NCBI GenBank assembly: GCA_033439295.1
Contig: JAVTLE010000011.1
Coordinates: 2,511,095 to 2,575,094 of the forward strand
Length of the DNA: 64,000 nt
Source: Deuterostichococcus epilithicus
Lineage: Eukaryota > Chlorophyta > Trebouxiophyceae > Prasiolales > Stichococcaceae
Direction of reading: 5' to 3'
Under the pieces are notes generated by a model that saw only the letters and a program-made list of their open reading frames with translations, did not search any database and was not told where the DNA came from. Every line of letters begins with the position of its first letter. Within the stretch, counting starts at the first letter, position 1. A program made the position numbers and the translations under genes. Shown here piece after piece: positions 19,423-64,000 of the stretch.

Positions 19423-19464
<42 letters not shown>

Positions 19465-19913
19465 CGCCAGCGGAGCGTCGGGCCCTATCCCTGCTGGCGG
19501 GGGGCAGCAGCCCATGGCTCAGCAGCAGCAGCTCCAGCGGCAGCCGGGCCAGCAGCAGCAGCAGCCAGGCCAGCAGCAGCAGCAGGTGGTGCAGCAGCAG
19601 CCGGGGCAGCAGGTGCAGTTTGCGCCCCAGGCGCAGGGCATGCCGGGCATTCCGATGCCAGGCGCCGGCACAATGGGAACCATCCAGCCCATGTCCCAGG
19701 TGTGCAGCTGAGACGGCGGGACCTGTCTGCACCTTCAGGCTGGCATGCCCTTTGAGCGCACTGCTATGTGATGCACAAGGCCGTGGTGGCCACTGCCGTG
19801 AACGGCGTACACCAACGCTGTGCTTGCACGGTCCAGGATATGAGCCCAGCTGCAGCCTGTAACGCAATTTGCCTGCTTCCTGCATCCCATGCAGGCGCAA
19901 CAGATGGCGCTGG

Positions 19914-20007
<94 letters not shown>

Positions 20008-20617
20008 GCCGCCGGCACTCCAGCAGCAGCAGCAGCAGCAGCTGCCGTCCGGAGCAGCGGGGCCGCCCACCGGCGCCGCCGCAGCGCAGACAGCTCAGCA
20101 CCTGGCGGCCAATCAGGCGGCGCTCATCGCGCAGCAGCGCGCGCGGGCGGCGGCAGCGTCGGGGTCCATGCCGGCAGGGATGCCCGCAGGCGCACGGCCC
20201 GGCACGCAGGCGATGCCTCGGACAGGCACGGCAGCGATGCCAGCGGGCGACGGCCAGGGCCCGCGACCCAGTATGCCCGTGCCTCGGCAGCAGCTAGCGG
20301 GCGGGCAGCCGCAGCAGCTGGTGGGGGGCCAGCCGCGGCCCGCGGCCGGGGCGCTGCCAGGCCAGCCACAGATGGCCCAGCAGCAGATGCGGCCTGCGGC
20401 CGCAGGGGGAGCTCTGCCGCAGCCCGGCATGCCGCAGCCCGGCATGCATCCGCTGCCGATGGCGGGCAGCCCTGCGCCCATGCGCCCAATAGCGCCAGGG
20501 CAGCAGCAACTGGCTCCGCAGCAGCAGCAGCAGCTGGCGCGGCCACAGCAGCAGCTGCAGCAGCCGCAGGAGGCGCGGCAGCAGTCGGTGCAGCCGCCGC
20601 CGCCGCCCGCGATGTGA
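13284..20617 (+). CDS. EAF1-like chromatin scaffold with HSA and SANT domains and glutamine-rich tail
   Basis: Resembles plant EAF1 / Vid21, the platform subunit of the NuA4 histone acetyltransferase, without the Swi2/Snf2 ATPase. Traced exons near the N-terminus are 13284-13524, 13636-13784, 14092-14211 and 14448-14528, with matching phases. The HSA-type helix reads YLLQEATWLAIDFSQ joined to ERLWKRYAAKSIAF. Later exons give AIRAWEDEYAAAKEERAEAM (about 15597), a basic-acidic stretch RNKRNRPTYVPMEEDIEW (about 16100), RKRRAEAADLDDFEPGGG (about 16500) and a SANT/Myb module GWSGHEDEMLAAVVHEFGDN with SHKACRERFKELH (16926-17100). From 17350 on the protein is rich in Q, A, G and P, with exons joined through short introns, ending at PPPPPAM and TGA at 20617. 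The start is uncertain (first clear ATG 13284, upstream exons possible), and exons between 14800 and 16900 are only partly resolved. Nuclear location is inferred. Confidence 0.72.
18385..18425 (+). repeat. G-run cluster in an intron of the EAF1-like gene
   Basis: Seven or more runs of four to nine guanines separated by one to three bases on the coding strand, a textbook G-quadruplex pattern, lying between two Q/P-rich exons. Confidence 0.85.
19424..19462 (+). repeat. (CAG)13 glutamine tract
   Basis: Thirteen pure CAG codons in the reading frame of the EAF1-like gene, after PNGIAAAP and before PASGASGP. More interrupted CAG clusters follow to 19613. Confidence 0.93.
19916..20005 (+). repeat. 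(CAG)30 pure glutamine tract
   Basis: Thirty uninterrupted CAG codons by direct count, in frame after QAQQMALG and before RPPALQQQ. Every glutamine uses CAG, so the tract is a perfect trinucleotide microsatellite as well as a polyglutamine segment. Confidence 0.95.
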
Positions 20618-21993
20618 GACAGTCTGGGTTTTCAGCGGTTGACATGTCTTGCCACGCAGCCTGCAAGGGGCAGCGGCCACGCAGTCTGGCGTGTACTTGC
20701 CTTGGGCGTCTCGCACCAACTGGGCCTCCAGGAGGCAGCGGGACGCCGCAAGCTGTGCACTGCAACTTGCGTGCTTGCACTGCTGATCGCTATGCAACGA
20801 AGAAAATTCAGCAGGCTCTACCTAGGACACCGTTCTTCGCGGCATTCGCAAGCGTTGTTGGCGTTCGGATCTTGCGCATGGAACTGCCCCGTGTGTGTCG
20901 AATTGTGTCGCCACCATCGTGTCGTCCCGGCGTGAGTGCAGATCCCGATTACACACTCGGCCCCGTGTTTGTCGGACAGTGTCGGCAGACGTCAGCCCTC
21001 TCTCATTATCTATCGTCCCATCCGGTTGTTCAAGTGCTCAGTTGCAAGCCCTATTGCGCATCCTTCCGCCAGCGCAGCCGTCTCTGCAGCACAGGCGCTC
21101 TGCACCTGGCACAAGTGCACAGCCTGTAGCGATTACACTGACAGCCCCCACAACCCCGCCCAGCGCCACCACGCCCGCCGCGGCACTGCAATTCGATTAT
21201 GGAAGCGCCGGCGCCGGCCTTGAACGGGTGGGTCTTGCCGTCGATGGCCCGAACACTTCGTAACGAAAGGGCCTGTGAGCAACTGCAAGATATTTGCGGG
21301 CAGCAGCTATGTGCCCCTGCCTCGAGCTGTCAGTATGGCCTTCTCGGGGGATCCGTCTAGCGCGCACCCGTTCCGGCACACTTTGCCGGCCTGCGCCAGA
21401 AACAACCTTTTGCACAGCTGGCAAGGCACACAATTGAGGCGGTGCAACCCGAGCCGCTCGCAGCCCCAGAAGTTACAGTCAGGCGCCTGGGTGCGCCACT
21501 GTTGCAAGTAGATTGCAACTGCCGCTGCGGTCGAACACCTCTCCAAGAGACTAGCATACGACAGTCGGCGTCGCTGTGGTCAAGTACAAGCGAACGTCAG
21601 GTGTTGCGACGACACCTTCACCCCTGTAGGCCTTCGTCCAGAAACGCGTGGCGTGTGGCCGCGGTGTGCTATTCCGCCTGATGCAGGCAAACACCAATGC
21701 TCACTGTTCATTTGCTGGCCAGTAGCAGGCAAGCAGCGTGACTCAGCCAAAGTTCATACCCACTCACAAAGCGCTCTTAGCCAGCCTCTCCAGCCTATCC
21801 AGCCAAGAGCACGGTCCGACAGCCTAGCGACAGCGCTGATGCGAAGGAGCCAGCGGCTGGTGGCAACTACAGATTGCCAACTCGGGTGCATGTCAGGTGC
21901 CTCTAGCCTCGCTGGCAGGCGCCTGTCGTCGTGCAGTACACAGTGCGGCAGGCTAACGCCTGTCCGCTCACAACAAGCAGGGCCAACAGCAAG
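20618..21993. other. Upstream region of Hint gene A; left part of the duplicated unit begins near 20930
   Basis: No protein is recognisable. From about 20930 the sequence matches 26105 onward (for example CTCAGTTGCAAGCCCTATTG at 21035 and 26218). The shared blocks are probably promoter and 5' untranslated sequence of the two Hint genes. Confidence 0.7.
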
Positions 21994-24900
21994 ATGAACA
22001 ACAGCCTGAAGGTCGACGTGCCGGCCGGCGGTGGTAAAGACCTCTCACGCCTGCCCACACGGCGGCGGCGCGTGCAGGAGCGCCTCGCGCAACTGGACAT
22101 GGACGGCGATGGGATGGTGTCTAAGGAAGAACTGGTGGGAACTCATGCCTTTCTACATCCTGTGCGCAGGCATTGAATTGGTCTGCACTATATGTCGATG
22201 GCGCGAGTGCTCACTGCTTCTGACTGGTTCTCACCTGCCGTGCGCCATCACCTAACAGAACCTGCTCTCTTCACAATGCAGATCGGCTTTATCGAGGACA
22301 CAATTGCAACGGAGACCCAGGTGAGACTGGCGTTGCGCACAGCGTGCGCCGACATGCATGTGCAGAATGGCACTTGTTACAATGCGATGCACTGTTGCCA
22401 CCGCCTCCTGTTGAGCAGGGTAGCGCGACGCACACATGCAGGTGAAATATCTCAAGTGGGCCGGCGTCTTCGTGCTGGTAAGTCCTGTTTGTGTTGTCTT
22501 TCGTTGAACAAACAACATCATTGAACCGCTGTCGGTGCTGTCAGCCCTGGTGGGCTGCACTCCACAAGTTTGCGCCTCATTGACCTCCACAATGATCATG
22601 CAGGTGTTCACCATCATCCTGTTGGGCTGCATTGCGGGACTCATCGTCGGCATCACCAAGGCCCTGCGTGAGACGAAGTCGGAGGTGCGATTTTGATGCT
22701 TTGATCTGTGCTGCAGTCAATGGCGACCGTCCAGCATCAATGACAGGGCTCGATTCGTCGGAGGCAACTGCACAGTGGTGTGACACGCGCAGCCAGCGAC
22801 TCGACGGTTGCAGCACGGCGCTGACACTGCATCGTCCCCTGCACACAGTCGGGCGCGCTTGCCGACAACTCTTCCGGCGCGACGCTCCGCACCGCGTCCG
22901 CCAGCTACATGCAGCCCATGGTGACGGCGGCGAGCTCAACGGCTGGCCGCCGCCGGCTGCTGCAGACCGGCGCGGATCTGGTCGGCACCATCCCCACCTC
23001 CACCGTCGCGACCTACTGCAAGTACCTCCACGAAGGTGAGCTGAGGGTGATTTTGGCTTCTCTGATATACCACGGCGTTGACTGGATGGCTGTCTCCGGC
23101 ATCCAACCAATATGCTGCCTCCTGGCTGGCGTCACCCAGCTCTGATGACCGAACGTGGTCGCCACGCAGGCTACATCACCGTGCCAACATCTGCCACCTT
23201 CATGAACGGCAGTGCTGAGATCGTCGACGGCGTCTCCCCCGTCCAGGTGCGGCAGCCAGGATATGCATAGCGTACTCACGACTCAAGTAGCCCTGGGCTG
23301 AGCAAAGCTCTGTCAGGATGCAGTCCTCACAGCTATGAATTTGATTCTTGCATTGCATCACCGTCTGACAGCTGGGCAGTACTGCACTGTGGGATAGCGA
23401 AGCATTTGATCATACTGCCCTTGCACTTCCAGATCACAGGGGAGACAAGGTGCGTGGCCTGGGTGGCCGGCCTCAGCCCTGCCGACATCCAGCACGGGCC
23501 CGCGGTACCGACGGGTGGCGTCAGCGGAACTTTCATCTATGACAGCGACCAATACTCGGTGGAATGCGAGGCCGCGGCAACAAACTGCACCCTCTTCGTC
23601 ACGAGCACCTCGTCCAACAGCACTGCTACGTCCACCTCGGGCCGCCGCCTGCGTGAGCTAAAATATAATGTTGCACAGAGCAACAGCGGGCTTTGCCTCA
23701 CAACTGTGCTTGCGGCTTGGCGCGGCGCAATATCCTTGCACGATAGTTTGAGTCATTGGGAGGTGGCGGTCGACGGATGTTCTGTCTTGCGTCCGCAGTT
23801 CAAGACTACTACCAGAAATGCTGCAATGACCCTGATCGTTCCCATGCTAACATCCCAAGATGCTGCGGCGGCGGCGGCGACTGTGATGCAAATTGTAGAG
23901 ACAGAAACCCAACACCCCAACCATCTGGCGGCTGCTTCCCGGCTTCTGCGGAGGCCGTGACATCATTGGATGGTGGCGTGACAACCGTCGTGCGTCGCAT
24001 GGGCCAGCTTCGCATCGGCGACAAGGTGTGTTGCAGTCCCAGATGCATGTCGGACATTGATAGTGCATCCACTGCATTGACATGTGAGACTGCCCAACGC
24101 TGAAGCGTAGGCTCAGCGCATCAGCCATGTGTAGGTGCGCCCTGCCACAACTGTTGCGCGCAGCGTTTGCTCACGGTGCATCATACTGCATCACACTACA
24201 GGTGCTGACTCGCGATACCGCTGGCAACATGGCCTTCGAGGATGTCTACGTGTTTGGCCACCAGGACGCATCTGCCACTGCTCCCTTCGTCCGCATCCAC
24301 ACTGAGGTGCGCCCCGCTGGCATGACCATCCATGTGCCATATCTCAAAACTGTGCTAGGTCTCCCAAGCCTGGCACAGAAGACCTGGAATGTCCCTCACC
24401 AGCTGTACTCAACCTCTGCCTGCCTCACAGACACACTGCTTCTGCCCACAGGGGAGCTCCAAGGCCCTGGAACTGACTGGCGGCCATTTCGTGCCAACTC
24501 TCGACGCCGCTGGCAAGCGTCGTATGCTGCGGGCCCGTGAAGTGCGCGCGGGCCAGACCGTCTTGGTTGCCGGCGCCAGCGGCTTCCACCCCCGCACAGT
24601 CACGAAGGCACGTTCAAGTGGCCAAGTTAAAGAGGGTGCTAATGCAACCTGCTTGCACCGGTGTTTGCTTGAACGGTGCGTGGCTGAAGTGCAATTGCCA
24701 TGCGCATCAATAAGCACAGCTGCAGCAGGCTGGATTTTGACGCTCCAGGGCGCCTGTGAAACATACAGGTCACTAGCGCCACGCTGCGCGGCCTGTACAA
24801 CCCGTTCACCTTGGGCGGCAACATCGTCGTTAACGGCGTCCTGGCGTCGGCGCACAGCGAGTGGTTCCTGGACGGCGTGGTGCCGGGCGCCTGGGCGCAC

Positions 24901-25303
24901 CGCCTGCCGGCCACCTACCAGGTGCGCCCAACTATGTGATCTTGCCATCTTGGCTATGCTTCAAAGACGACTTCACGGATGAGTGTCGCATGTGCACACC
25001 TCGTGTGCACACTCTGGACGCCTTGCACCCTTAACACTCGTCGTGGTAATCCTCTCCTGCTGTACCGGTACCTTGCCACATTCATGCGGTGCTTTACATT
25101 ACTGTCTGACCTCGCAGGCTGTGCTGACGCCGGCGCGCATGATGTACCACGCCTTTGGTGTCGAGGCAGCGCGCCGCATCGATGCCGCTGTGGACTTTGC
25201 CAGCATTGCCGGCGGCGCCAAAGGTGGCTTTGGCAACTTTGCCATTGCCGTGGGCCTGGCCCTGCGCACTGGGGTTGCCGGCATGATCACCGGCAGCAAG
25301 TGA
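21994..25303 (+). CDS. Membrane EF-hand protein with C-terminal Hint (Hedgehog Hog-like) autoprocessing domain, copy A
   Basis: Twelve exons: 21994-22134, 22282-22320, 22442-22477, 22604-22684, 22849-23035, 23170-23246, 23433-23652, 23799-24025, 24202-24306, 24452-24607, 24769-24921, 25118-25303; total 1608 bases, 535 residues. Residues 35-46 form a canonical EF-hand loop (DMDGDGMVSKEE). A hydrophobic span at about 66-89 (GVFVLVFTIILLGCIAGLIV) gives one membrane pass with no signal peptide, so the EF-hand should face the cytosol and the rest the lumen or outside. An ectodomain with NST sequons and Ser/Thr-rich stretch follows, then a Cys-rich linker (KCCNDP, RCCGGGGDCDANC). The Hint domain starts at Cys306 (GGCFPASAEAV), has LRIGDKV, the T380-x-x-H383 block (LELTGGHFVP) and the Hog-like strand NIVVNGVLAS near 441-450. 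The last 60 residues are Gly/Ala-rich and hydrophobic, in the position of the adduct-recognition region. Intron 10 uses a GC donor. Self-cleavage before Cys306 is inferred, not shown. Confidence 0.85.
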
Positions 25304-25628
25304 GCCAGAAAAGACATGACCTGACATGATAACGCTGCATGCGCCCAATGTCACGCAAGAGCAAGTAAGGTCGGAATTGCTGCGACTGATTTTTCTTGCA
25401 AATCGTCGTGAGCTCGATAGTACCTCGTGGGCCTCGCCAAAGGACAGTTCGGTGTTGTTTTGTCACAGTAAATGGAGAGAACATTTGCTAGGTCGCTGCT
25501 TGTTACCTGTTCTGGTACTCTACCTTCTTGTTCGCTGTGTTGCTTTCTGCAGTTGCCAAGAGAAACACTCGGCACTGCTGACCAAAAACGACCCCCAACC
25601 CCATTGCGGTGCGGCACTGCAACATCAC

Positions 25629-25678
25629 TGAAGCTCCACCTCGAGGCATCTTTCAGCGCATCCCGTCCTTGGCCTTAT
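25629..25678 (-). pseudogene. Captured, decayed copy of the PheRS terminal exon
   Basis: Matches 30679-30729 (blocks GAAGCTCCACCT, TTTCAGCGCATCCCG-like and TTGGCC). On the minus strand the frame is broken (the original VRDALKDDL segment gains a stop after GMR). It has no upstream exons, so it is a by-product of the duplication that made copy A. Confidence 0.8.
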
Positions 25679-25713
25679 AGACACAGAAGGAGGCTTGACA
25701 ACGAGACAACAGT

Positions 25714-25741
25714 GCTTCATGCTTCATGCTTCATGCTTCAT
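25714..25741 (+). repeat. Heptamer tandem repeat (GCTTCAT)4
   Basis: Four perfect units. The equivalent place in unit B (about 30773) has a single TTCATGC, so the expansion arose after duplication. Confidence 0.93.
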
Positions 25742-27066
25742 GCTTCCCGACTGCAGTGCATGCTTGCGGCTCTGAGAAGCCGCGCAGTCAAAACAATAAA
25801 TCAATACTACTTTTGCCGAGCGCGCAGCTCATCCAAGGTCGCGGCAGCACCGTGGGTAGTTACGCATCGCAGTGGTGTGACACATGAAGCTTGCCGTGCG
25901 TCTGGAAACGCGCTGGTGCCGCACCCGAGTACCGGTAGCACAAGTAGCGCTATGCACATAACGCGCCTGATCCCATCACTCTACAGGTCCGCTGCCTTCC
26001 CCGCCCGAGGCGCCCTCAGACCAGGGCCAGGCCCTTGAGTGCGCTGAGGTGGGGCAACGTCTGGGTATTGTCCTAGGGTTTAGGGCATTTGGAGGGCCAT
26101 TTGTACGTCGTGAGTGCAGATCTCGATTATACGCATTGGCTCCTCCGGTGGTTGTCGGACAGTGTCGGAAGACGTCCAGCCTCCCTCAACATCGATCGCC
26201 CCATCCGTCTGTTCAAGTGCTCAGTTGCAAGCCCTATTGCGCACACTTCCGCCAGCGCAGCCGTCTCTGCAGCACAGGCGCTCTGCACCTGGCACAAGTG
26301 CACAGCCTGTCGCGATTACATTGACAGCCCCGCCCAGAGCCCCCAACCCCGTCGCGGCATTGTAAGCGACTATGGACGCGTCGGCGCCGGCCTTGAACGG
26401 GTGAGCTGGGCTGTCGATGGTCCGAACATCTCGTTATGAAAGGGCCTGTGAGCAATCGCAAGATATCTGCGGGCAGCAGCGATGTGCCGGCGTGCATCTG
26501 ATGCTGCCTCGAGCTGTTAGCACGGTCTTCTAGGGGACTTCGTCCCCTCCAGCGCCCACCCGATCTAGCACACTTTGCCGGCTGCTGCGCCAAACCAACT
26601 TTGTGCACAGCTGGCGAGCACCAACTTGAGGTGGTGAAACCGAGCCGCTCGCAGCCCCATAGATCACAGCCAGGCACCCTGGCTGCGACACTACTACAAG
26701 CAGAGTGCGTTTGCTGCTGCGGTCGAACACCTCTCTCAGATATTGACTGATATGACTAATTTCATACGGCGGGATCGCCTTGTCGAGTAAGAGCAGGGGC
26801 CCGGTGTGTCCAATTTTCCGACGACACCTTCACCTCCAGCTCTGCAAGCCTTTTTAGAAACCACGGGGATTGTGGCCGCGGTCTGCTGTCCCGCCCGATG
26901 CAGCTGGCGTCATCGACAGGCTGGCGAGTCTGGCCAGCGCCTGGCAGGCTGGCAGCAGGTGCATGCCAGATGCCTGTAGCCACGCTGGCAGGCGCCCGCA
27001 ATTTTGCTGTACGCATTGCGGCAGGCTAACGATTGTCCGCTCACAACAAGCAGGGCCAACAACAAG

Positions 27067-30000
27067 ATGAACAACAGCCTGAAGGTCGACGTGCCGGCCG
27101 GCAGTGGTAAAGACCTCTCACGCCTGCCCACACGGCGGCGGCGCGTGCAGGAGCGCCTCGCGCAACTGGACATGGACGGCGATGGGATGGTGTCCAAGGA
27201 AGAACTGGTGGGAACACACGCCTTTCCACATTTTCCGCCTCCGGCATTGCATTTTTCTGCACTAGTACGTGGCAATGATAATGGTGAAGTCGCTGCTTCT
27301 AGCAGCGATTTTCCCCCCTGCCATGCGGTGCGCCATCAGCCTCTGGTGTCGGCTGACAGATCCTGCTCTCTTCACGACGCAGATCGGCTTCATCGAGGAC
27401 ACTATTGCAACCGAGACCCAGGTAATGAAGCCTGGCAGGCATTGCGCTCAACTGTGCGATGGCGTGATGGATATGCAGAACCGCACCTGCTGCAGTGCAA
27501 GTATAGTCTTGTTGTCTCCGCCTCCTCATGACTCACAATATACATTTACAGGTCAAATATCTCAAGTGGGCTGGCGTCTTCGTGCTGGTAAGAATTCTCT
27601 GTATGGTCTGTCACTTGTTGAACTGTTGCTGGTGGTGTCAGCGCTAGTGGGCTGATGCACTCAATAAGTATGCGCCTCTCTTGACCATCACAAGATGACC
27701 ATCTGATAATGCAGGTGTTCACCATCATCCTGTTGGCCTGCATTGCGGGACTCATTGTCGGCATCACCAAGGCTTTGCGCGAGACGAAGTCTTCGGTGCG
27801 ATTTTGATGCTCTGACCTATGCTGCAGCCCATGATGACCGTCCAGCAACACGGCTTGAGTCATCAGAGCAGCTGCATGGCGTTGTGACGCGCGCAACCAG
27901 CGACTCGACGATGGCAGCACGGCGCTGACACTGCGTCATCCCCTGCACACAGGACGGCGCGCTTGTTTCCAACTCGTCCGGCGCGACGCTCCGCACCGCG
28001 TCCGCCAGCTACATGCAGCCCATGGTGACGGCGGCGAGCACGATGGCTTCTGGCCGCCGGCTGCAGCAGACCGGCGCGGATCTGGTCGGCACCATCCCCA
28101 CCTCCACCGTCGCGACCTACTGCAAGTACCTCCACGAAGGTGAGCTGAGGACCCCTGGCTTTGCGTGGGATCTCGCTTGCTACTCCCAATGCTCGCCATG
28201 TCATTCAATGGATGGCTGTCTGCGGCATCTAACCAATGCATTGCCTGCTGGCTTAGTTGTGTCATTCAGCTCAACCGAATGTGGCTGCCATGCAGGCTAC
28301 ATCACCGTGCCAACATCTGCCACCTTCATGAACGGCAGTGCTGAGATCGTCGACGGCGTCTCCTCCGTCCAGGTGCGGCAGCCATGATATGCGAAGCGTG
28401 CTTACTGCTCAAGGAGGCCTGGGCTGAAAGCAGCTCTGTCAGGATGCAGCCCTTGGAACGTTGCAGTCGACCCTTGCGTCCATCACCGCTTGACAGCTGG
28501 GGGGTACTGATCACGCTGTGGGATAGCGAAGCATGTGACCATCCTGCCCTTGCACTCCAGATCACGGGGGAGACAAAGTGCGTGGACTGGGTGGCTGGCC
28601 TCAGCCCTTCCGACATCCAGCAGGGGCCCGCGGTACCGGCAGGTGGCGTCAAGGGCACTTTCATCTACGACAGTAGCCAATACTCGGTGGAATGCCTGAC
28701 CGGGAAAAAAAATTGCACCGTCCTCTTCACGGGCACCTCATCCAACAGCACCGCTACGTCAACCTCGGGCCGCCGCCTGCGTGAGTGTCCATATCATGTT
28801 CGTGCAGATTCGTAGCCGGCCTGGCCTCTCTGCTGTGCTTACGGCTTGGCGCACTATCTTTGCAGAATCACATTCCGGACGGCGGCTGACACAGATTCGT
28901 TTTGCGTCCGCAGACCAATATACCCCTGGTCCATGCGACTATTATAATCAGCGAGGACTGAAGTGTCCCCAGCCAAGCTGCTTCCCAGCTTCTGCGGAGA
29001 CTTTGACGTCCTCGGATGGTGGTGTGACAACCGCTGTGAGTCGCATGGACCAGCTGCGTATCGGCGACAAGGTGCGCTGCAGTGCCAGGAGATGCATGTT
29101 AGACATCGATGGTACATTGCCATTGCAAACTCCAGACGCTGCAGGGCAGGCTCCGCGCATGAGCCTTGTGTAGGCATGCTTTGCCGGAGCTGTTGCAGCC
29201 AGCGTTCTGCTCACGGTGCATCATACTGCATCACACTGCAGGTGTTGACCCGCGACGCTGCTGGCAACATGGCCTTCGAGGATATCTACGTGTTTGGCCA
29301 CCAGGATGCATCTGCCACTGCTCCCTTCGTTCGCATCCACACTGAGGTGCGCCCGCGGGCACGATCATCCATGTGCCACACTGGGCCTCAGCAGCCTGGT
29401 GGGTACAGAGGACATGGATTGTACCTCACCAGCTACGATGCTCAACCTCGACCCGTCTAACAGACACATTGCTCCTGCCCACAGGGGAGCTCCAAGGCCC
29501 TGGAACTGAGTGGCGGCCACTTTGTGCCGACGCTCGACGCCGCTGGCAAGCGCCGCATGCTGCGGGCCCAGGCTGTGCGCGCGGGCCAGATCGTCCTGGT
29601 TGCCGTCGCCAGCGAATTCCAGCCCCGCACAGTCACGAAGGCGCGTATTTGAGTCTCAGATGCTGCATTGCTCTGATGTCGCATGGGTGCAGTGGTGAGC
29701 GGCTGCCGTGCCCGTCAAGCACAGCTTCAGCAGGCCGGATGTTGACGGTTGAGGGCGCCTGTCAAACTCGCAGGTCACCAGCGCCACGATGCGCGGCCTG
29801 TACAACCCGTTCACCTTGGGCGGCGACATCGTCGTCAATGGCGTCCTGGCGTCAGCGCACAGCGAGTGGTTCCTGGACGGCGTGGTGCCGGACGCCTGGG
29901 CGCACCGCCTGCCGGCTACCTACCAGGTGTGCCCAACTGCGTACTCAATCTCGGCTACTGGTCCCAGTGACACCTTCACGGATCAGTGGCGCGTGTGCAC

Positions 30001-30316
30001 GCCCAGCGTGCACACTCTGGGCGCCGTCCAGGTGACCCGTAGTAACGACGTCTGCTGAGGAGTGCCTGCCTGTGCCTCACTACGCCATTGCATCCCAAGT
30101 GGTGCTTTACATTAGTGTCTGACCTCGCAGGCTGTGCTGACTCCGGCGCGCATGATGTACCACGCCTTCGGCGCCGAGGCGGCGCGCTGCATTGATGCCG
30201 CTGTGGACTTTGCCAGCATTGCCGGCGGCGCCAAAGGTGGCTTTGGCAACTTTGCCATTGCCGTGGGCCTGGCCCTGCGCACTGGGGTTGCCGGCATGAT
30301 CACCGGCAGCAAGTGA
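27067..30316 (+). CDS. Membrane EF-hand protein with C-terminal Hint domain, copy B
   Basis: Twelve exons: 27067-27207, 27383-27421, 27552-27587, 27715-27795, 27953-28139, 28296-28372, 28561-28780, 28914-29071, 29242-29346, 29485-29640, 29774-29926, 30131-30316; total 1539 bases, 512 residues. Eleven exons have the same length as in copy A. Exon 8 is 69 bases shorter because the Cys-rich linker is replaced by a shorter one (PGPCDYYNQRGLKCPQPS). The presumed nucleophile is Cys283 (SCFPASAETL). The TxxH threonine is a serine (S357, LELSGGHFVP). The EF-hand loop and membrane span are kept. The frame is open throughout, so the gene is not a pseudogene on sequence grounds. Intron 10 again starts with GC. 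It converges with PheRS, 362 bases away. Same inferred topology as copy A; ligand, partners and cleavage are unknown. Confidence 0.85.
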
Positions 30317-30678
30317 GCCAGAAAAGGCATGACAAGACCTGACATGACAAGGCTCTGCATGTCATCGAAGACGTCAAGGCAAGAGGAAGTAGGGGTCTGG
30401 AATTGCGACAGATCGGCTTGCAAATTATTGCGAGTTCGACAGCTCATTGGCCTCGTCACAGGAAAGATCGTTGTTTCTTTGTCACTGTGTTGGAGCGGAC
30501 TTATCGCTACGTTGCAGCACGTTTCTTTTCTGTTGTTAGGTATATGATTGCTGTGTTGCTTCTCTAGCTGCGGTTGCAGTGACTCGATCCTAGGCTGAAA
30601 TAGGTAAGCAACAGCTGGCATGCTGGTCCAGCCGACCCCCAGCCCCATTTGCGGCTTGTGGCAAAATGTGCTGCCACA
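30317..30678. other. Convergent 3' region between Hint B and PheRS
   Basis: 362 bases between the two stop codons; both 3' untranslated regions must lie here. Nothing else is recognised. Confidence 0.7.
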
Positions 30679-33600
30679 TCATCGAAGCTCCACCTTCAGA
30701 TCATCCTTCAGCGCATCCCGCACTTGGCCCTGCAAACACGGATGGAGGGTTCAGAACGAGACTCTATGTGACTTCATGCTCGTCAACGCAGCGGCTGGAG
30801 GGCAGTGCACGCTTAAAGCTTTCAGGCGCCGCATGAACCACGATAATCACCTGGAGACTGTTGATCTCCTCGTCCGTCAAAGACCTGCAGGCAGGGAACG
30901 CGTCACGGTGTGTCTGTCTGCGCAAGTGGTGCACTGTGAATACGCCGGCTTTGCCCGCCCTGCTCTGCCGCTGAAGGGAGGTGCTTCCTGTGACGCCGCT
31001 TGTGCAGCGGCTGCAACGCTGTGCACCACACGTCAGGCGGGCGCACCGCTCGTTGGAGCGGTAGGCGATGCGGAAGCAGTTGGAGGTGCGGCCGGTCTTG
31101 GGGTTTGTGAAGTCGTCGATGAGCTTCACCTCCTCCACCAGGTCGCCTGCACTCAGGAAGGGAAGCATGTCTGGGCATCTCCATGTGCTGTTCCAGCATA
31201 TGGTTCTGCACCACGGTGTGTGCAGCACCTGCCAGGCACCCTGTCTGGGATTGTGCTGAGCGCCTGATGCAGCCACACATGCCAACGAGCTGAGCGTCAC
31301 CTGCGATGCCGCGCACCGCCTCGCACAGGTTGTTCTCTGTGAAGTCGTCGTTGGTCCAGAAGCTGACGTCCTGCAGCAGAGGCAAATCAGCTGACGCGTT
31401 ATTTGCTGCTGGATGTTGTGTCGTAATTCGCGCTGCCGGCTGCATGTACGGTCTGTCCATGTTGCGCATCACGTGTCGCAAAGCTCAACAGCATCAGGCG
31501 CTCATGCGCCTCAACCAGTTGCAACTCTGCGCACCTTGAAGCAGGGCGGAAACTTGGAGAAGGGCTTGAAACGCGCATTCAGGTTACCGGCCTTAAACTG
31601 CTTCAGAAAGCGCTGGTCCTCCGACCAAAACAGCCTGCGGGTGTTTGACAAGAGCATGATCGGGCTGAGGGACACAGCAAACAGACTGGGACCTGAAGTA
31701 TGGAGGAAGCTGCGTTGAAGTCTGTACCTGCCCAGAGATCAGCGGGGCGGAACCAGATATGCGCAGGGGCTGCATTGCTCTGACAGCCCCACGTGGACTG
31801 GGTGTTTAGTACACAGGCGCTGAGAGGCGCGGCAGGCACTTGAGTGAGTGCCTGCAGACAAGGTGCCAGCTGACCAGCTGACGCACGCACCGGATGTCGG
31901 GGATGTCGAACAGCACCATCGCAAGGCGCTCCAGCCCCAGGCCGAAGGCCCAGCCTTTGTTGCCCGGTTGCCCATTGTCCTCAAGAATGGACTGCTGCAT
32001 GACGCCGCAGCCCAGCACCTCCAGCCACTCGCCGCAGAAGAAGATCTCCAGCTCGAAGGAGGGGTCGGTGAACGGGAAGTAGGCGTCCACTGCACGGGGC
32101 AGAGGGGAGGGATGCATGTTTGGGACCTGAGCATCTGTGCTGGCCATGAATAAGGGCAGAGCAACAGATGCACTGCCGACACATGCTTTGCATGGTCTCG
32201 AGAATTGCCACGCACCTGTCCCTCTCCCAACCCGCGGTCGGCAGTTTGAAGAACGCTGTCTCGAGCAAAGGGGGGGAGGGGTGGGGGGGGGGGGTGAGGC
32301 AGGCAGGTGATGCTCTGCACGCGGACACAAGCCCGCCAGCGGTCGGTTGACGAGGCGGCAGCAGCAGCAGTGGCTGCAGGTGGCACGCACCCCAGCGGGT
32401 CTCAATCTCCTGGCCGAACAGGTGGCGCGCGAGTCCCTCCAGGGTCTCCTTGAGTTCCGCCTCCACGAACTCCACGGCACCCTTGCCTGCATGGGAGTTC
32501 GCACAGATGATCATGAATGCGGAGTGGAACGGTGCACCTTGGACCCAGGAACGACAGGGCTACAAGGCGCCCTTACGCTTCTCTGCCACTGCCTCCGGCG
32601 CAGGTATGGGCAATGAATTTGGGCATAGTAAGCAGGCTAGCATGGCTCTGCCATCTCCCTCTCTCTCAAAATGCCAGCAATGGGAGGCGGGGCAGCCGAC
32701 GCAGCCTCTCTGAAATTGAGGAGAGACTCAATGTCGGTCGAGGCTGCTCGAAGGTCCGCAGCGTCATGTGTTCAAAATTCTGTCCACGCACAATCCAACA
32801 TCTGCGGTCTCCCCCGACAGGAAGAGGAGAAGGCTTCCTCAGATGATGGGACACCTCCATGGCATAACAGGTGGAAGCCGCTCAGAATATCCAAGGGCAG
32901 GAGCCGGCCTGGCAATTCAGCTCTCATCACCTGCAGCCTCCCAGGAGGTGGGTTCGTGGATGCGGACAGCCTCCATCTGATGAAACACCGGGTAGTGCGT
33001 CGCGTCCACGGTGTCGCGTCGGTACACATCGCCCGTCACCAGAAAAGCAGACTCACCCTTGCGCAGCAGCTCCGCCTGTGTGTATTGCATGAAACCGCAA
33101 ATGTGAAGTCACCAGGTCCAGGCAGCCAGGCATCCCATCCCAAAATGCCTGTTTTGGTTGTTGCTGTGCAGGCTAATTGACTGTGGATAACAGAAAGCTG
33201 GTGCCAGCTACAATAGAGCATGTACCTGGAATCGGCCTGTGGCGCCTGCTGGTGAATGATCGGTCCCATGCCCCAGCTCGACCCCGTGTGGCAGCCTTAC
33301 AGCTAGGATGGCAGAGCTGCCTTTGCGGTCGCGGCCGCCTTGGCAGCCACGCGTGTCAAACCCACCTGGTGCGCGGAGGTGTGACACCGCAGCACAGTGT
33401 CTGCGTCCACGTAGAACGTGTCGTTCGAGCCGCGGCTGACGTGGTCCGCCGGCACCAGCACGTCGTCGAAGTTTGCCTGCGGGAAGCGCGGCGCTGCTCT
33501 AGCTGCCACACGTGACCAGAGTGCACACCACAAGCCTACACAGTTATCTGTATGGCCATAGCAGGTGCAGGCACAAGCAGGTACCCATGCCTAGAAGCAT

Positions 33601-63069: not shown

Positions 63070-63660
63070 TCAGTCACTATCAAGGTCGATCTCGATGTCA
63101 TGCTCCACATCCTCACCACCCCCCTCCACCTCCTCTCCACCCACACCAACTCCCGCCACATTGCCTCTCATGGCACCCCTCAATGCTTTCATGCCATCCA
63201 CGGCCCTTTGGGCATCCCGTTGGGGCTTGGTCCGATCATAATGCTTCGTGGCCGTGGAGGGGGCATGCCCCATGGCCGTGGCAAGCTGATCCTTGGTGGG
63301 TGCTCCCTCAATTGGGCGAATTGCCCCATGCACCACACCAATGGTGATGTGCCTTCACCACACAAACGAAAAGAAGGTGAGCCTCTACCTATGAAGAGCT
63401 TGGTGGGCATGCGTGGGGTGTCATCAACACACATTGCATTGCATTGCATTGCATTGCATTGCATTGCATTGCATTGCATTGCATCGCATTGCATGGGGAT
63501 TTGCACCCCTACATTGAGAGCCCACCTTGCAAGGTTGGGAGCCATCCTCTTGCCACATATCTTCTCACATAGATCCCCAAACATCACCCTCCATTGCTTG
63601 CTCGTGAAGCCCACGCTTGTGATTGGGTCAAAGAAAAGGGGTAGTGCCTCCTTGTCTCCC
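63070..63660 (-). pseudogene. Tyrosine-recombinase-like C-terminal remnant (Crypton/DIRS style)
   Basis: Minus-strand pieces read FFDPITSVGFTSKQWRVMFG and GKRMAPNLARWALNV (63500-63655), then, in another frame after the satellite, VHGAIRPIEGAPTKDQLATA joined to MGHAPSTATKHYDRTKPQRD, ending in an acidic tail with stop at 63070. The GH…T…Y spacing resembles the last catalytic His and Tyr of tyrosine recombinases, but the rest of the fold is not visible and the frame is split by the satellite (or by an intron). It could be a different repeat-encoded protein. Confidence 0.4.
63433..63492 (+). repeat. Pentanucleotide satellite (GCATT)n
   Basis: About eleven units of GCATT with one GCATC variant, interrupting the recombinase-like reading. 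Confidence 0.93.
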
Positions 63661-63736
63661 TATGCAATGAAGCACCCACACACTTGAGGCCTTGCTTGGG
63701 GGCTTTGCATGTGCATGGCTTGCACCCAAACACTTG

Positions 63737-63772
63737 GGTTTAGGGTTTAAGGTTCAGGTTTAGGGTTTAGGG
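63737..63772 (+). repeat. Degenerate plant-type telomere repeat (TTTAGGG)
   Basis: Contains GGGTTTAGGGTTTA, then GGTTCAGGTTTAGGGTTTAG. The unit matches the plant/Chlorella telomere heptamer, imperfectly. A single short version is at 61394. Confidence 0.8.
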
Positions 63773-63828
63773 TGGGTGCATGAAGAGCACTTGCCCATTG
63801 TGCGCCTCATAGCTCGGNTTTTAGAGAG

Positions 63829-63852
63829 TGGANGGTTGNNNGNNNANNNTTN
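63829..63852. other. Cluster of unresolved bases
   Basis: Scattered N residues; the assembly or consensus is unreliable here and may join two copies of a repeat. Confidence 0.95.
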
Positions 63853-64000
63853 GCCAGGCGCCTAGCTGAGGCCTCTGCGGTGCCGCTGCCGGTAGCCACG
63901 TCCAGATCCGAGGTCAGACGCTCGAGCTATGGCCATTCCCGTGCCATGGGGAAGCCCAACATGTGTCCGCTCAATGAGCCGCCGGCCCGACTCCAGACCA
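63853..64000 (-). repeat. Inverted copy of 62396-62557
   Basis: The last 148 bases are the reverse complement, with scattered differences, of the segment around 62396-62557 (shared blocks include GAGGCCTCTGCGGTGCCGCT-like and GCCATTCCCGTGCCATGGGG). It starts immediately after the N cluster. Confidence 0.88.

Follow-up and report, generated by a model that had tools for sequence, protein, structure and literature searches.

The HOG1 and HOG2 Genes

The window analyzed here is a 64,000-nucleotide stretch of the green alga Deuterostichococcus epilithicus, and it constitutes the final 64 kb of contig C10 (JAVTLE010000011.1) in a genome of 46.8 Mb and 21 contigs. Two tandem genes on the plus strand, designated HOG1 (21994-25303, 535 aa) and HOG2 (27067-30316, 512 aa) and each composed of 12 exons, encode proteins in which an N-terminal tail with an EF-hand loop, one hydrophobic span, an ectodomain and a C-terminal Hog domain follow one another. 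The genome is photosynthetic and green-lineage-like: two matches to the RuBisCO small subunit sit side by side on contig C11 (3.1 Mb), and 39 matches to chlorophyll a/b-binding proteins are spread across eight contigs.

The exons of HOG1 are located at 21994-22134, 22282-22320, 22442-22477, 22604-22684, 22849-23035, 23170-23246, 23433-23652, 23799-24025, 24202-24306, 24452-24607, 24769-24921, and 25118-25303, and those of HOG2 at 27067-27207, 27383-27421, 27552-27587, 27715-27795, 27953-28139, 28296-28372, 28561-28780, 28914-29071, 29242-29346, 29485-29640, 29774-29926, and 30131-30316. They were joined manually at canonical splice sites, and the models come from sequence and not from transcripts. 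An earlier note on this DNA had proposed twelve exons per gene, and these do join in both, with equal intron phases and an identical position of the stop codon. Ten of the 11 introns are of the GT-AG type, and intron 10 is GC-AG in both genes (24608-24768 and 29641-29773). Retention of intron 10 in place of the GC-AG splice was rejected, since its 161 bases break the frame of HOG1 and the read-through meets a stop in HOG2. A splice-aware alignment of the HOG2 protein with the HOG1 locus placed 10 of the 11 introns identically and moved the acceptor of intron 7 by six bases, within the variable linker of HOG1.

The duplicated unit is about 5 kb in size. The first unit (20928-25723) pairs with the second (26106-30780) in three blastn blocks of 76-79% identity with gaps between them, and the introns of the two genes are 63-85% identical over aligned bases. 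Synonymous divergence between HOG1 and HOG2 is 0.21 and non-synonymous divergence 0.077, with a ratio of non-synonymous to synonymous divergence (Ka/Ks) of 0.37 for the whole protein. By part, Ka/Ks is 0.06 for the N-terminus with the EF-hand, 0.36 for the membrane span and the adjoining stretch, 0.78 for the ectodomain, 0.22 for Hint and 0.16 for the C-terminal region (HOG1 residues 454-535); in the linker, indels and an undefined Ks leave the ratio not soundly computable. The Hint part is under purifying selection, and both genes are under selection, which is strongest at the two ends of the protein and weakest in the ectodomain.

The C-Terminal Hog Domain

The Pfam Hint family (PF01079) matched residues 303-454 of HOG1 with an E-value of 6.4e-29 and 101.5 bits, and residues 281-431 of HOG2 with 3.8e-27 and 95.7 bits; the cut-off is 29.7 bits, and three paralogues reached 82.4, 97.3, and 98.7 bits. 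Because these scores are far above the cut-off, the motifs of HOG1 and HOG2 are more than chance. The elements named in the earlier note are present in both copies: the EF loop, one hydrophobic span, the ectodomain with sequons, the domain start CFPASAE, TGGH or SGGH, and IVVNGVLAS. The animal form that it gave for the last motif, VVDGVLAS, was inexact, as Drosophila Hedgehog has IVVNSVAASCYA and human SHH has TILINRVLASCYA.

Compared with PDB sequences, the HOG1 Hog domain matched Drosophila Hedgehog first (6tyy, 9e-14; 6td6, 1e-12; 1at0, 1.9e-12) and human SHH next (5.3e-11), while the following match, at 0.08, was taken as chance. A profile was built from seven of the eight available Hog domains of the family (alignment A1; the copy at C18:3282k was excluded). 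It matched Hedgehog chains at 7e-26 to 2e-19 and a single archaeal chain, the intein MJ0781, at 0.0018. Comparison with 1at0 by hhalign gave a probability of 99.0, and 38-45 of 142-145 aligned residues are identical to the Drosophila Hint. On these comparisons, the C-terminal domain is a Hog domain with the Hint fold as judged by profile, and none of the inteins in the PDB set is as close to it as Hedgehog. No Hedgehog N-terminal family, the Hedge signalling domain, was among the Pfam matches up to an E-value of 1. Inteins carry a His-Asn end as their C-terminal signature, and no such end follows IVVNGVLAS in the HOG1 and HOG2 sequences. Viral contigs were scanned twice, with the HOG1 Hog domain and with alignment A1, and no confirmed relative was found in them.

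Exons 11-12 of HOG1 (24769-25303, plus strand) encode motif J (IVVNGVLASAHS) and a C-terminal region resembling the adduct-recognition region, with a motif K-like WAHR; the same exons of HOG2 (29774-30316, plus strand) encode motif J and the C-terminal region. WAHR aligns with AHW of Drosophila Hedgehog, and its His is invariant across alignment A1.

Active-Site Residues

Active-site positions were mapped in Drosophila numbering on eight aligned algal Hogs, the decayed copy on contig C11 described below standing outside the alignment. The position of the nucleophile Cys258 is Cys in all eight, followed by Phe; this residue is Cys306 in HOG1 (GG/CFP, 23933-23935) and Cys283 in HOG2 (PS/CFP, 28979-28981), both on the plus strand, as are all codons in this section. 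In the TxxH motif, the position of Thr326 is Thr in six Hogs and Ser in two (HOG2 and the copy on contig C5), and His329 is kept in eight of eight. The motif reads TGGH in HOG1 (residues 380-383, 24476-24487) and SGGH in HOG2 (29509-29520).

The position of Asp303 (D46), the general base of Drosophila Hedgehog, is occupied by His in all eight aligned Hogs and also in the decayed copy (VFGHQD), that is, in nine of nine loci. The His is residue 356 in HOG1 (24259-24261) and 333 in HOG2 (29299-29301). The alignment is ungapped at this site and is the same with phmmer, MAFFT, and hhalign. The structure 6tyy (D303H) differs from 1at0 at that residue only, and it outscored 1at0 with three of three algal queries, the margin being 5.2 bits with the family profile. 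Nematode Hogs may differ from Asp at this position.

Asp303 is described as the general base that activates cholesterol in Drosophila Hedgehog, and in the D303A variant cleavage driven by dithiothreitol (DTT) persists while full cholesterol transfer is not achieved (PMC9163320); similar statements are made for vertebrates (PMC13060885). D303H is reported to retain the structure, the pKa and cholesterol transfer, with gains of more than 200-fold on coprostanol and more than 300-fold on epicoprostanol (PMC9163320). Judged from the alignment, the algal His is the natural counterpart of this laboratory variant. Most simply, His would serve as the base in the algal enzymes, whose substrates may be sterols different from cholesterol; cleavage by a thiol alone or by hydrolysis is possible as well. 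A natural His at the general-base position was unreported in a partial literature search that excluded figures, and the alignments of Burglin may show one.

N-Terminal Tail, Membrane Span and Ectodomain

The N-terminal tail contains the loop DMDGDGMVSKEE at residues 35-46 of both proteins (22096-22131 in HOG1 and 27169-27204 in HOG2, plus strand), inside a helix-loop-helix-like stretch. The canonical 12-residue EF loop pattern is kept in eight of the nine family loci with changed flanking residues, and is missing from the copy at C18:741k. The matches to EF-hand_5, with E-values of 2.1e-4 for HOG1 and 1.9e-4 for HOG2, are below the cut-off, and so are the Pfam EF-hand scores of all four scanned proteins with this tail (12.1-21.2 bits against cut-offs of 25-30; the best, 21.2, against 25.9). 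The canonical EF-hand of the earlier note thus holds as a loop pattern and falls short as a Pfam assignment. An NCBIfam scan of HOG1 yielded a sole sub-threshold match over the same stretch (E 0.0079, 16 against 120 bits), taken as chance or as general EF-hand likeness. Calcium binding by the single EF-hand is plausible; the control by cytosolic calcium that the note had envisaged is supported by no result.

Exons 3-4 (22442-22684 in HOG1 and 27552-27795 in HOG2, plus strand) contain a single predicted membrane span, at about residues 66-90 of HOG1. The Kyte-Doolittle average over 19 residues from residue 69 is 3.07 in HOG1 and 3.19 in HOG2, behind a hydrophilic tail, and no second segment above 1.6 was seen in either protein. 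Exons 5-7 encode the ectodomain (22849-23652 and 27953-28780, plus strand). Its cysteines C156, C194, C232, and C239 in HOG1 are conserved in the family, and these four cysteines and the C-x-x-L-H-E-G motif are retained in copies whose ectodomains are just 25-27% identical to that of HOG1. The ectodomains of six models have 4, 4, 3, 3, 3, and 3 sequons and the Hog part has none; an extra sequon is located at residue 2 in the tail of HOG1 and HOG2. From the sequons and cysteines of the ectodomain and from the lumenal site of Hedgehog processing, a cytosolic tail is inferred. HOG1 and HOG2 are thus probably type II membrane proteins, and a location of the ectodomain on the outside is plausible.

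Dibasic RR-L sites flank the ectodomain on both sides in all six full-length models. The first site of HOG1, RRLLQ, is at residues 134-138 (22951-22965, plus strand), where RR-L is present in six of six aligned models; the second RRLLQ, at residues 258-262, is split across exons 7 and 8 at the end of the ectodomain. HOG2 has only RRLQQ and RRLHQ, and the sites of the C5 copy are weaker. The linker that joins the second site to the Hog Cys contains cysteine and is very variable. DNA encoding RRLLQ in one codon choice occurs at 150 sites genome-wide; a permuted order occurs at 100 and the reversed pattern at 19. This difference is too weak for RRLLQ to be called a processing signal across the genome, and the idea was dropped.

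Paralogues in the Genome

The genome was probed with Pfam Hint, HOG1, one copy from contig C18 and one further Hog. The family has at least nine loci, that is, the two window genes and at least seven others, of which six have an EF loop and a membrane span (one of them decayed) and one has a different N-terminus. Only two of seven rows of the Pfam Hint genome search reach the cut-off (C18:3281918 and C18:740742), because this search reads single exons; the locus counts are lower bounds. Four copies on C18, at 2.010, 2.281, 3.277, and 3.282 Mb, have the same architecture as HOG1; for the copy at 2.117 Mb of C5, the EF loop, the span and the Hog domain were found and the ectodomain in part. EF loop, span, ectodomain and Hog domain are present in all six models drawn full-length by alignment to HOG1, in which the C18 C-termini beyond MHRI were trimmed. 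Apart from the tandem twin, the Hog copies are 27-36% identical to HOG1. In the tree, from which the decayed C11 copy was left out as it was from the Hog alignment, HOG1 with HOG2 and the four C18 copies form starred groups, and the deeper forks are unsettled.

Two loci depart from the common plan. The copy on C11 (199000-201400) keeps the EF-hand and membrane-span exons and has lost the nucleophile exon: between neighbouring exons 142 bases apart there is no match to HOG1 residues 163-335, which hold the Cys, and TSGR replaces TxxH. It shows that the autoprocessing core can be lost. The copy at 0.741 Mb of C18 (740700-741500) has a Hog domain scoring 98.7 bits with Pfam Hint in a different, Ala/Pro-rich upstream context, in which three coding-strand frames over 8 kb revealed neither an EF loop nor a strongly hydrophobic segment. 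It seems that an exchange of the N-terminus has taken place inside a single genome. Matches to the N-terminal module at E-values of 0.01 or better fall in family loci only. These searches missed the tail of the C5 copy, and a tail free of Hog may therefore exist unseen.

Genomic Surroundings

The distance from HOG1 and HOG2 to the end of contig C10 is about 34-42 kb, and not all other family loci are near contig ends. The contig-end stretch (63400-64000 of the window) includes a CATTG pentamer array at 63432-63494 and degenerate TTTAGGG telomere-like units at 63739-63772, along with scattered N, of which the whole window has 13. Just upstream of the tandem units, 19423-20600 is occupied by long GCA/CAG repeats that could encode glutamine or alanine runs. 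Just downstream, on the minus strand at about 31887-32096, is a class II core domain of the phenylalanyl-tRNA synthetase type (PF01409, E 1.2e-19). Elsewhere in the genome, three matches above the cut-off to the Patched family (PF02460) were found on C19 (1990182-1990726) and C14 (309911-310030). They could represent sterol-sensing transporters and are candidates for moving sterols or lipids, possibly NPC1-like. The same profile is positive in three of 14 control genomes, all archaea, and the matches therefore prove no pathway.

Proposed Processing and Alternatives

We consider it rather probable that HOG1 and HOG2 are precursors anchored in the membrane, which cleave themselves at the Hog Cys and transfer the C-terminus of the ectodomain to a sterol-like alcohol. 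The protein would be synthesized at the endoplasmic reticulum as a signal-anchor protein, leaving the EF-hand tail in the cytosol and placing the N-glycosylated, Cys-containing ectodomain and the Hog domain in the lumen. After folding of the Hog domain in the secretory lumen, Cys306 would attack the preceding bond in an N-S acyl shift aided by T/S-x-x-H, so that residue 305 becomes bound to it as a thioester. With the nucleophile Cys and T/S-x-x-H both intact, a cut in front of the Cys is the likely chemistry. His356 would then activate a lipid alcohol, most probably an algal sterol, to displace the thioester; the Hog part would be discarded and the ectodomain would gain a C-terminal lipid. 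The ectodomain would be held by the span and the lipid, and proteolysis at the RR-L sites could free it later. Calcium could act on the tail, with no tie to cleavage in the results. More tentatively, this alga may possess a Hedgehog-like precursor family of its own, in which a calcium-sensing anchored protein gives rise to a C-terminally sterylated, Cys-rich ligand, surface-bound or secreted, and in which the naturally evolved His base would suit algal sterols over cholesterol.

Several observations weigh against sterol transfer by such an anchored precursor. The SCYA Cys, at the position of Cys400, is Ala in two, Val in five, and Ser in one of the eight Hogs and Cys in none. The region past the Hint core, which would recognize the sterol, resembles that of Hedgehog weakly. 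The residue before the Cys is Gly in HOG1 only, and Ser, Asp, Asp, Glu, Gln, Asn, and Ala in the other seven. For the topology, two Lys precede the HOG1 span and three Lys/Arg follow it within 15 residues, so the positive-inside rule does not favour, and slightly opposes, a cytosolic N-terminus; one of the four C18 models has a second mildly hydrophobic stretch (1.81, residue 227). An ectodomain profile from five of the six available sequences had no match in PDB at an E-value of 0.1 or better, and the ectodomain matched no Pfam family at an E-value of 1.

The Hog domain might merely cut itself off, by hydrolysis or with a small thiol, leaving a tethered or shed ectodomain and no lipid, which we regard as possible though not favoured. 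Since Asp303 is dispensable for DTT-driven cleavage in Drosophila (PMC9163320), the algal His need not imply sterol transfer, and the loss of the SCYA Cys and the weak likeness past the Hint core point in the same direction. On the other hand, copies that, the tandem twin apart, share just 27-36% identity with HOG1 all have the His in place of the general base, and the post-Hint region is under strong purifying selection (Ka/Ks 0.16); plain hydrolysis would seem to require neither this constraint nor the His. A view compatible with the sterol-transfer reading makes the RR-L sites the main place of processing, where a lumenal protease would release the core of the ectodomain together with a short peptide rich in Cys, and the cut made by the Hog domain would do no more than set the C-terminus of this peptide. 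The pairs that bracket the ectodomain in six of six models and the variable, Cys-containing linker are consistent with it; we nevertheless consider it unlikely, as the RRLLQ-coding DNA is only modestly commoner than its permuted order, HOG2 has just RRLQQ and RRLHQ, and the C5 sites are weaker. The paired sites do allow several outcomes, so the tethered ectodomain foreseen in the earlier note is one among them and not the only one. That note was right about the Hog/Hint identity, and what it had overlooked is that His replaces Asp at the sterol-activating base, that the SCYA Cys is gone, that the family counts nine or more loci, and that RR-L sites occur in pairs.

Loss of catalysis in relic Hog domains, or pseudogene status of the genes, is improbable. 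Decay does happen in the family, as the C11 copy with its missing Cys exon and its TSGR demonstrates, but the 12-exon frames of both window copies are open, their overall Ka/Ks is 0.37, and Cys, Thr or Ser, and His are kept in eight of eight aligned Hogs. It is hardly credible that the domain belongs to the inteins or to bacterial intein-like domains, with the ability to splice or a recent arrival from bacteria or a virus. The Hint fold is shared and MJ0781 was weakly matched, yet Hedgehog chains match 16-22 orders of magnitude better, the domain is trailed only by its own C-terminal region with no intein-type splice junction, and neither scan of viral contigs brought up a confirmed relative.

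Comparison with Known Hog Systems

Green-algal entries called Hint-domain protein probably exist in sequence databases. The Hog domain itself is already known and widespread. Hog domains were recorded in red algae, mosses, alveolates, cryptophytes, jakobids, haptophytes, and others, and an ancestral secreted protein was postulated to which the Hog domain adds a sterol or similar group (Burglin 2008, PMC2362128). Hint proteins are also on record from a brown alga and a diatom (PMC3879662). The proteins surveyed by Burglin resemble HOG1 and HOG2 in that the Hog domain stands behind a lineage-specific, often Cys-containing N-terminal part, and in that the SCYA Cys is often replaced, as in moss, red algal, and several protist Hogs; they differ in that those with reliable starts have a signal peptide (PMC2362128), in contrast to the probable signal anchor of HOG1 and HOG2. 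In the available parts of that paper, no green alga is named (Chlamydomonas and Chlorella occur 0 times), EF-hand occurs 0 times, and the sole use of "transmembrane" concerns a Nematostella protein. Choanoflagellate Hoglet and Glomus GIN1 likewise combine Hog with an unrelated N-terminal domain, but these domains differ, and GIN1 is without a signal peptide (PMC2362128). Like the Hog ("Hedgehog") genes of the red alga Cyanidioschyzon merolae, which are near telomeres (PMC5405695), HOG1 and HOG2 are near a chromosome or contig end. Within the partial literature search, three features appear to be new: an EF-hand combined with a signal anchor, the conservation of the His, and the expansion into paralogues.

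Hedgehog proteins have been termed singular across life for the covalent ligation of cholesterol (PMC7242414). A green-lineage family with the Cys and TxxH kept, His in place of the general base in every copy, and a membrane anchor where a signal peptide would be expected would show this chemistry outside Hedgehog signalling, and the algal Hogs would be a natural enzyme set for joining other sterols to proteins. What non-animal Hog domains attach is an old question, which the algal family makes directly testable.

With the Hog of animal Hedgehog (Drosophila 1AT0 and 6TYY, and human SHH), the algal domains share the Hint fold as judged by sequence, the Cys-Phe start, TxxH, the motif J-like IVVNGVLAS and the AH in the region of motif K. 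Unlike animal Hedgehog, no Hedge domain was found in the algal proteins, an EF-hand signal anchor takes the place of the cleaved signal peptide, His stands for Asp303, and Ala, Val, or Ser stands for Cys400. Drosophila D303H (D46H, PDB 6TYY) shares the His, which is an engineered point mutation there and is natural here in nine of nine loci. If the more tentative ligand reading given above holds, nature has arrived at the exchange that was introduced into Drosophila Hedgehog by engineering, where it broadened the range of sterols used.

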